Below are positions 37,553 through 39,738 of a stretch of DNA of 64,000 nt, piece after piece. The notes beneath the pieces were generated by a model, which saw only the letters and a list, made by a program, of their open reading frames with translations, was not told where the DNA came from and ran no database searches. Within the stretch, counting starts at the first letter, position 1; every line of letters starts with the position of its first letter. The translations under genes were made by a program, and so were the position numbers. The stretch spans positions 1,798,001 through 1,862,000 of the forward strand of contig NC_014011.1 of assembly GCF_000025885.1 (NCBI RefSeq), given 5' to 3'. The stretch is from Aminobacterium colombiense DSM 12261. Lineage in GTDB: Bacteria > Synergistota > Synergistia > Synergistales > Aminobacteriaceae.

Positions 37553-38521
37553 TTACTTTTTGTTACATTTTTTCACTTTTAGGGTCTCTTTGAGATGGGC
37601 CAACATATCCTCGGTCATTTTATCGAGATCATATTTGGGGTCAAATCCCCACTCTTCCCTGGCAGCGCTTACATCCAGAGAGTTTGGCCAGGACTCGGCA
37701 ATAGACTGTCGAACAGGATCCACTTTATATCCCAACGTGAAATGGGGTATGTACTTTCTGATTGAAGCCGCCAACTCCTCGGGATCAAAGCTCATGGCAG
37801 AAATATTGAAGGCGTTGCGATGTTTCAGTTTTGAAGAATCTGCCTCCATAAGCTGGATAACAGCATCTATAGCATCGGGCATATACATCATATCCATATA
37901 GGTGCCCGCGGCAATGAATGAATCATAATGACCATCGGCAATAGCCTTATAGTAAATTTCTACGGCATAGTCAGTCGTTCCTCCACCTGGTTCTGTCTCG
38001 TAGGATATCAGGCCTGGAAAACGGACACCTCGTGTATCCAGGCCATATTTTTTATGGTAGTAATCGCAAAGAAGCTCTCCTGTTACCTTCGTAATGCCAT
38101 ACATGGTGGCGGGCCTTTGAATGGTATCCTGAGGCGTATGGTCCAAAGGTGTATTAGGCCCAAAGGCCGCTATGGAACTGGGGAAAAAAACCGCACACTG
38201 TTTTTCTCGCGCTACTTCTAATGTATTAAAAAGCCCGCCAGCATTAATTTGCCAGGCAAGCTGAGGCTTTGCTTCGCCAACAGCCGAAAGAAGACCCGCC
38301 AGATGAAGAATCGTATCAATATTATATTTCTCCACAATACGTACAAGGGTGTCACTTTCACGGACATCAAGAATTTCAAAAGGTCCGTCACCAAGCTTTT
38401 CTATGCCTGTCGTTTTAATATCAGACCCCACAACATGGTCGGAGCCGTACTGGCAACGAAGCTTCTTTACAAGTTCCGTTCCAATCTGCCCTAGACACCC
38501 TGTGACCAAAAAATTTTTCAC
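37553..38521 (-). CDS. tdh: SDR-type L-threonine 3-dehydrogenase
   Basis: A 322-residue NAD-dependent extended SDR with VTGCLGQIG, FPSSIAAFGP and the catalytic YGITKVTGE. This short-chain form of threonine dehydrogenase differs from the zinc enzyme of E. coli. With kbl directly downstream its assignment is firm. The GTG at 38521 is selected: AAGGAGGAG is 6 nt upstream, while an upstream ATG lies before that site. Expression probably depends on the threonine-rich leader ORF and terminator just upstream. Confidence 0.93.
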   Translation of the reverse strand: MKNFLVTGCLGQIGTELVKKLRCQYGSDHVVGSDIKTTGIEKLGDGPFEILDVRESDTLVRIVEKYNIDTILHLAGLLSAVGEAKPQLAWQINAGGLFNTLEVAREKQCAVFFPSSIAAFGPNTPLDHTPQDTIQRPATMYGITKVTGELLCDYYHKKYGLDTRGVRFPGLISYETEPGGGTTDYAVEIYYKAIADGHYDSFIAAGTYMDMMYMPDAIDAVIQLMEADSSKLKHRNAFNISAMSFDPEELAASIRKYIPHFTLGYKVDPVRQSIAESWPNSLDVSAAREEWGFDPKYDLDKMTEDMLAHLKETLKVKKCNKK

Positions 38522-38546: not shown

Positions 38547-38831
38547 TTATGAATTATTAAATAAAATAAAGGACCCCCGAAGAGGCCCTTTATGGTATTG
38601 TTCCGTACAAACTCCTGATGTCATAGCAGTTGATGTAGTAGTAGTCGACGTAGTAGTCGACGTGGTAGTCATTGTAGTTGCAGTTACTGTTTTATTTTTG
38701 TGACCTGCCATAGGAGAACCTGCTCTCAAGGCTTGGCGCTGTGAGCTCATTTCTTCCACGAAAGAAACTGTTTTTATTTTAAGACAGGGGGTGATAAGCC
38801 CTTTGGCAAAGTTCGATGTTAAAGCCCGCAT
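38547..38831 (-). CDS. Threonine-rich leader ORF of the tdh operon
   Basis: A 94-codon frame with GGGAGG 5 nt before its ATG. Positions 47-75 contain 16 Thr among 25 residues (TTMTTTSTTTSTTTTSTAMTS), spelled with ACT, ACA, ACC and ACG and including a short tandem repeat of GTCGACTACTAC type. The intrinsic terminator falls inside the frame (codons for HKGPLRGS), and the stop comes only after it, 26 bp before the tdh start. Internal starts at the two later ATGs are possible. It resembles thrL-type leader peptides in composition, but thrL stops before its terminator. It is a regulatory peptide by inference. Confidence 0.6.
   Translation of the reverse strand: MRALTSNFAKGLITPCLKIKTVSFVEEMSSQRQALRAGSPMAGHKNKTVTATTMTTTSTTTSTTTTSTAMTSGVCTEQYHKGPLRGSFILFNNS
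38556..38591 (-). terminator. Terminator/attenuator before tdh
   Basis: On the minus strand AAAGGGCCTC-TTCG-GGGGTCCTTT forms a 10-bp stem (two G-T pairs) closed by a stable TTCG loop, followed by ATTTTATTTAAT. It lies inside the leader ORF and would stop transcription unless a ribosome is on it. Confidence 0.7.
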
Positions 38832-38890
38832 TACGTCCTCCCACTTCTTTACTTGACAGCTTTATCTTAGTATTTTAACTCAACCTGCCT

Positions 38891-38919
38891 AGTATACGCA
38901 CAGTCTTTAGAAGAAACAA
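38891..38919 (-). promoter_or_regulatory. Sigma-70 promoter of the threonine operon
   Basis: TTGTTT (38914-38919), a 17-bp spacer and TATACT (38891-38896) on the minus strand. Start of transcription is expected near 38884, about 50 nt before the leader ORF. Confidence 0.6.
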
Positions 38920-38980
38920 GCTAAAACACTCACTCTTTTTTTATTTTACCATGGCCCCGAACCGGGGCCTGTTTCTTTTA

Positions 38981-39571
38981 TCAGGTGGTACGGCACTCCG
39001 CCTGTTTTCTTCTGGGAAGGAAGGGAAGGTCAAGTTCTCCGGCAAAGGCCTCCATTCGGTGAGGAGCCACAAAGCCCCGCCCATCTTTCCATTCCACGTA
39101 GACCCAATTTTCAGGAGTGCCCCTTAAACGCACTTTTCCTCTATACCAGCCCCGCTGTTTTATGCCGTCTGTGATTATTTTTTGCCCCTCTGTGGTGTTT
39201 CTCTTTTTGACAGTCCAATATCCATCATCTCCCCAGGGGACGGTTCGGCTCTTAAAGACCCAGGCAGAATCTTTATATTCCAGATAGGAAAAAGTATCCG
39301 GCACAGGGTTTCCTTCTACATGAAGAAAGCTATGTCTCACCTCTCTTGGAGTCCCCTGATCTGAATAAGTTATTTCTTGTCGAAGCCCTTCTGGCAAGGA
39401 TTGGGAGGCTCCATCCTCTGAGATTGGAGCGGAAACCTCCTTCCCGGAATTTTTCAGGGATTCTGGGAGTTCTATTTCATCGGGTTGAACAGAACTTTGG
39501 GCGAGAGCAGCTGTTGCAAATAAAAAGATAAGACAGACAATACCCACCCAACGAAAAAACCTGTTTGCCAT
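38981..39571 (-). CDS. Secreted protein of unknown function
   Basis: A 196-residue protein with a clear Sec signal (RFFRWVGIVCLIFLFATAALA, cut after ALA). The mature part has an acidic, proline-containing N-terminal stretch, then a region with several tryptophans and aromatics (DSAWVFKSRTVPWGDDGYW, ENWVYVEWKDGRGFVAPH). No family was recognised. Start 39571 has AGAGG 8 nt upstream. It may be exported to the periplasm or cell surface. Confidence 0.7.
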   Translation of the reverse strand: MANRFFRWVGIVCLIFLFATAALAQSSVQPDEIELPESLKNSGKEVSAPISEDGASQSLPEGLRQEITYSDQGTPREVRHSFLHVEGNPVPDTFSYLEYKDSAWVFKSRTVPWGDDGYWTVKKRNTTEGQKIITDGIKQRGWYRGKVRLRGTPENWVYVEWKDGRGFVAPHRMEAFAGELDLPFLPRRKQAECRTT

Positions 39572-39738
39572 ACCACTCACCTCTCTTTTGTTTATTCTCT
39601 CATAATTTTTTATAAGTCGTCAAAGAAAAAGAAGACGAAAAGGCGATTTGATGTGTAGAATAATAAGCTGGTAATTATAAACTATCGGGGGAATTCGCTA
39701 TCTCGCCTAGCAGCCCACGAAATAAAAGGAGGATTCCC

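Follow-up and report, generated by a model that had tools for sequence, protein, structure and literature searches.

Descent of a threonine-rich open reading frame before tdh-kbl-glyA of Aminobacterium colombiense from a symporter gene

In the genome of A. colombiense, an open reading frame (ORF) crowded with threonine codons and enclosing an intrinsic terminator stands before the degradative genes tdh-kbl-glyA. Is it a leader peptide evolved to sense threonine, or did it come about in another way? The control of these genes is central to the organism because it grows by fermenting serine, threonine, glycine and pyruvate (PMC3035294). An earlier note on the same DNA had proposed a leader peptide working in reverse: with ample threonine the ribosome would mask the terminator stem and degradation would be switched on, a logic that is physically sound. 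Our literature search found no description of a threonine leader upstream of a threonine dehydrogenase. Here we follow the locus in a stretch of 64,000 nucleotides (the window), which belongs to a genome of a single contig of 1,980,592 bp, and in related genomes.

A leader-like arrangement on the minus strand

The ORF, its ribosome site, the threonine run, the terminator and tdh-kbl-glyA all lie on the minus strand of the window. The ORF encodes 94 aa (38831-38547, stop TAA at 38549-38547) and has a ribosome site of its own, as the earlier note had held, with a GGGAGG motif (38842-38837) 5 nt upstream of the ATG at 38831. Its threonine-rich stretch covers 25 codons (38690-38616), and the count of 16 Thr codons given before was exact; within it, 14 Ser/Thr codons follow one another uninterrupted (38669-38628). 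Since the threonine run is a short tandem repeat with units of approximately 12 bp, low-complexity expansion contributes to its making. Elsewhere in the genome, one run of at least nine Ser/Thr codons lies in an open frame without assignment, and a second corresponds to Glu/Val codons on the opposite strand.

The intrinsic terminator (38593-38556) is made up of a 12-bp stem with a UUCG loop (38593-38566) and a U-rich tail. With -17.6 kcal/mol it is far more stable than shuffled sequences, none of which equals it (z = -5.0), and the stem does precede the stop codon of the ORF. When the whole leader was folded in silico, both the minimum-energy and the centroid structures kept the terminator hairpin, and the overall stability was ordinary (z = -1.1). 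No Rfam family reached its gathering score at the locus, the best match having 23.9 bits against the 47 required.

The identity of the genes behind the leader was also borne out. The tdh gene (38521-37553, start GTG at 38521) encodes an SDR-type L-threonine 3-dehydrogenase that matches solved enzymes of this kind (E 1e-130). Based on NCBIfam and Pfam family matches, kbl (37521-36328) encodes a member of the glycine C-acetyltransferase/2-amino-3-ketobutyrate CoA ligase family, and glyA (36304-35030) a serine hydroxymethyltransferase. The promoter had been called good: by direct reading the site exists (38919-38891; TTGTTT at 38919-38914, 17 nt, TATACT at 38896-38891), but it shares 8 of 12 consensus bases and scores under the threshold of the promoter scan, so that it can be called moderate only.

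Further upstream lies a minus-strand gene without family match (39580-38981). Between this gene and the ORF there is a G+C-rich hairpin, GGCCCCGGTTCGGGGCC, at 38953-38969. It is followed by a T-run on the plus strand only and no gene ends there, so that transcripts of the upstream gene could run on into tdh.

Origin of the open reading frame

Searching the family for tdh led us to two genomes of the same genus (G006 and G007). In both of them, the gene directly upstream of tdh encodes a complete symporter of approximately 411-428 aa (PF00375). Its best NCBIfam match is SstT, with 74 bits, far below the cut-off of 308; by these matches the protein can be called no more than SDF/SstT-like. The symporters end in Ser/Thr-rich tails (GSSSTSTSSTTTSSTTTTSEAYTH in G006 and AGKESTSTSSSSSTMTTSTSTSTSGAYTE in G007), in which Ser is as abundant as Thr. 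The stop codon comes after the tail, the hairpin GGACCTC-TTCG-GAGGTCC follows 8-9 nt on, and tdh comes next. This hairpin is the same one as in the window, where the counterpart of the sister tails reads ...TTTSTTTSTTTTSTAMTSGVCTEQ.

The homology extends into the first half of the ORF. Positions 38840-38706 of the window and codons 106-150 of the symporter can be aligned in frame with no gap. In a register test against G007, 76 of the 135 bases were identical (56% at the nucleotide level, z = 8.1), against 34 ± 5.2 in random registers and 57 in the runner-up among approximately 13,000; with G006, the best register fell on the same codons 106-150 (65/135). Mismatches between the window and G007 are spread over the first, second and third codon positions as 19/19/21, against 6/2/24 between the two intact sister genes. 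Such an even spread indicates that this piece decayed without coding constraint, as pseudogenes do. The GGGAGG motif and the start codon of the ORF go back to codons in the interior of the symporter gene (in G007, AAGGAGGGCAGTATG). In all, two collinear pieces are left, that is, about 45 codons and the tail. Judged from these alignments, the ORF is the remnant of a symporter gene truncated at its 5' end and carrying an in-frame internal deletion. The terminator now lies inside the ORF because the old stop was lost: the TAA of G007 corresponds to CAA in the window (38600-38598), and coordinates place the GC core of the stem 9 nt from the lost stop.

The remnant escaped the profile HMMs of the symporter in six-frame translations; it is the DNA register test that carries the case for it. 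That the frame of the remnant is open is not strong evidence of selection; by our own arithmetic, 45 random codons remain open in about 11% of cases. The promoter candidate of the window showed no significant homology to the symporter promoters of the sister genomes (p 0.13 and 0.5).

A different origin was considered for the first half of the ORF (38831-38671, minus strand), which resembles the phosphate-binding region of OTC-like carbamoyltransferases (profile E 0.014), with shuffle p values of about 1e-7 for some orthologs. It was dropped, as the match of the ortholog in the sister genome is much poorer and there is no synteny. We judged the likeness to be due to chance, given that the alignment with the symporter runs in frame and collinear, needs no gaps and falls in the right place.

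The neighborhood tells the same history of loss. The window genome was searched for the symporter and none is present, nor was an ortholog found in it of the propeller histidine kinase whose gene stands upstream of the symporter in the sister genomes. The upstream gene at 38981-39580 gives the outer limit of the deletion: its counterpart in G007 sits beyond a block made up of kinase, regulator and symporter. Moreover, the order kinase, regulator, symporter, terminator, tdh and Kbl-like acyltransferase is also found in a genome of another family (G108), which indicates that the block is ancestral and was lost in A. colombiense.

These results do not support a threonine leader peptide that evolved as such, since the ORF is a transporter remnant whose first half lacks coding constraint. 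Ser/Thr codons are indeed conserved beside the terminator in both sister species, but there they belong to the C-terminus of a transporter and comprise serine along with threonine. The same leader layout was not recovered before tdh in relatives: the sisters carry the full transporter there, and other Synergistota have kbl or unrelated genes. A Thr-rich ORF before tdh was found in none of the other Synergistota and, convincingly, in none of 80 further loci, mostly from Bacillota. A dying gene can thus yield a convincing "leader peptide", which is a warning for searches of leader ORFs in single genomes.

Survival of the tail and the terminator

Beside the decayed piece, the end of the tail and the terminator have fared differently. 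They retain 75% identity to G007, a value close to that between the intact sisters (74%) and to that of tdh (78%), and two substitutions in the stem core keep the pairing as G-U. In simulations of neutral decay with 30-40% change per site, the run of 14 Ser/Thr codons was kept in about 0.1% of cases or fewer. Its survival in the sequence thus appears to exceed what plain decay predicts and counts against the reading of a mere remnant, with the real caveat that the run repeats in tandem with units of about 12 bp and that repeats can regrow without selection.

A comparison of symporter genes of Synergistota, limited to those in which a terminator was found, revealed an association between tail and terminator. 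All three genes with Thr/Ser-rich tails (in G006, G007 and G109) have the stem 8-10 nt past the stop, whereas in the other 11 the stem lies 26-68 nt past the stop and such a tail is found in none (0/11). This association was spotted post hoc, after inspection of the data, and involves only two independent origins of the tail. We count two because G109 belongs to a different family, its congeners have neither the tail nor a close terminator, and its Thr residues are spelled with all four synonymous codons, which form no repeat. On the other hand, six Dethiosulfovibrio-like junctions have kept the terminator and have no Thr/Ser tail. In G109 (L033; L196 6257-8516), the symporter ends in TGKTTTTHTTGSNTA, the terminator stands 10 nt past the stop, and the tdh gene downstream is not followed by kbl.

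Threonine attenuators of the thrL type have a Thr-rich coding stretch before a terminator, ahead of a set of threonine genes. The window locus shares with them the Thr-rich codons, the terminator and the threonine genes. It differs in that the operon is degradative, no competing antiterminator is seen in predicted folds, and the ORF is unconstrained as a peptide, its Thr run coming from a transporter tail. With SDF symporters (PF00375) the ORF has homology that is in frame and collinear with intact orthologs, but only about 45 codons and the tail are kept and coding constraint is lost.

A closer parallel is the pyrBI attenuator of E. coli, in which the terminator lies in the leader ORF and the hairpin is suppressed by a ribosome that follows RNA polymerase closely, no antiterminator being needed (PMC4824070). 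The stem of the window is also inside an ORF, and in G006, G007 and G109 the stem stands 8-10 nt past the stop. However, pyrBI senses UTP through polymerase pausing, whereas sensing in the window, if any, would go through Thr/Ser codons, and the ORF of the window is a gene remnant. In E. coli, ribosomes nearly abolish terminators located a few bases past a stop codon, an effect that is gone beyond about 27 nt, and they also repress terminators in later coding regions (PMC4824070). By analogy, the 8-10 nt in the three symporter genes would fall within the range of ribosome occlusion, as it was described for the repression of tR2 (Li et al. 2015; PMC4824070). That repression is a physical effect of a general kind, for which the measurements come from E. 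coli and were not connected with Thr/Ser codons; for Synergistota it is an extrapolation. The geometry of the window, with the stem in ribosome reach and no competing fold seen in predicted folds, fits ribosome occlusion by the same analogy.

How transcription may reach tdh

We regard the following explanation as the best one and hold it to be fairly probable: a symporter remnant together with the old junction terminator, through which translation helps transcription into tdh-kbl-glyA. The sequence comparison shows that the ancestral operon ran symporter, terminator, tdh, kbl and glyA, with a propeller-type histidine kinase and a LuxR-type response regulator upstream. The lineage of the window lost kinase, regulator and most of the symporter, leaving behind the piece of codons 106-150, the Ser/Thr tail and the junction terminator, with the stop before the latter mutated away. 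From this arrangement we infer that transcription reaches tdh-kbl-glyA by crossing the old terminator: a ribosome translating the remnant would occlude the stem and allow read-through, and with no ribosome close behind, part of the transcripts would end at the stem. Only about 45 nt separate the terminator from the start of tdh, which leaves little room for another promoter between them. Any dependence on threonine would be owed to the Ser/Thr codons that immediately precede the stem, and threonine-dependent read-through at this junction is plausible.

The surviving tail and terminator may play a cis-regulatory role, a possibility that we retain because they outlast the decayed sequence beside them and because of the association between tail and distance. 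Taken further, this leads to a less probable explanation, to which we give roughly one chance in four or somewhat below, in which the junction is a true conditional terminator responsive to threonine and serine. In the sister species, a ribosome that completes the transporter and arrives at its stop codon, 8-9 nt short of the stem, would mask the stem only if Thr- and Ser-tRNA are charged, and threonine degradation would be switched on; the transporter gene would thus carry an attenuator in its last codons, coupling amino-acid uptake to the expression of the degradation genes, and A. colombiense would have kept this switch as a stand-alone leader after the death of the transporter. Tails found only where the stem is 8-10 nt past the stop, the non-repeat Thr codons of G109, the rarity of run survival under neutral simulation and the E. 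coli limit of about 27 nt (PMC4824070) speak for such a switch; that the origins number two only, that the run of the window could have regrown as a repeat, that Ser equals Thr in the sister tails and that the Dethiosulfovibrio-like junctions do without a tail speak against it. As far as sequence comparison goes, the case for a translation-dependent switch at the 3' end of the gene is modest. If true, the switch began in the end of a transporter gene and not as a leader peptide. It would represent a testable type of control, in which the amino-acid-rich end of an upstream gene, in ribosome reach of an operon-internal terminator, senses for the degradative genes downstream.

It is improbable, in our view, that tdh has a promoter within or past the tail and that remnant and terminator are genomic debris without a role. 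Such a reading would agree with the unconstrained decay of the remnant and with a promoter-like site in the tail (38624-38597, 9 of 12 bases), which would start transcription near the stem and could carry it into tdh past the stem. Nevertheless, a stretch of this length should by chance contain about one site of this quality (0.7 ± 1.0), the -10 and -35 positions of the candidate are not conserved in the sisters, and the stem substitutions preserve pairing. Very improbable is a threonine leader peptide that evolved for the purpose and acts by reverse attenuation; the same holds for a classical attenuator that relies on an antiterminator. In favor of such a leader, the order of the elements is right, from the ribosome site through the Thr codons and the terminator to the degradative genes; against it are the descent of the ORF from a transporter gene, the unconstrained first half, a hairpin that stays formed in a whole-leader fold of ordinary stability, the lack of such a leader before tdh in the loci examined and, for a classical attenuator, the lack of an Rfam match.

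Two observations concern the genes upstream of the intact symporters. In G006, the response regulator and the symporter are separated by a gene that by eye resembles one for glycerate kinase (L026 3540-4820); G007 has no such gene in that place. Upstream of symporter and tdh, two families carry a histidine kinase of the propeller type together with a LuxR-type regulator (L025 1217-5148; L195 8457-12340); the pair, which is missing from the window genome, is a candidate for the control of threonine uptake and degradation.
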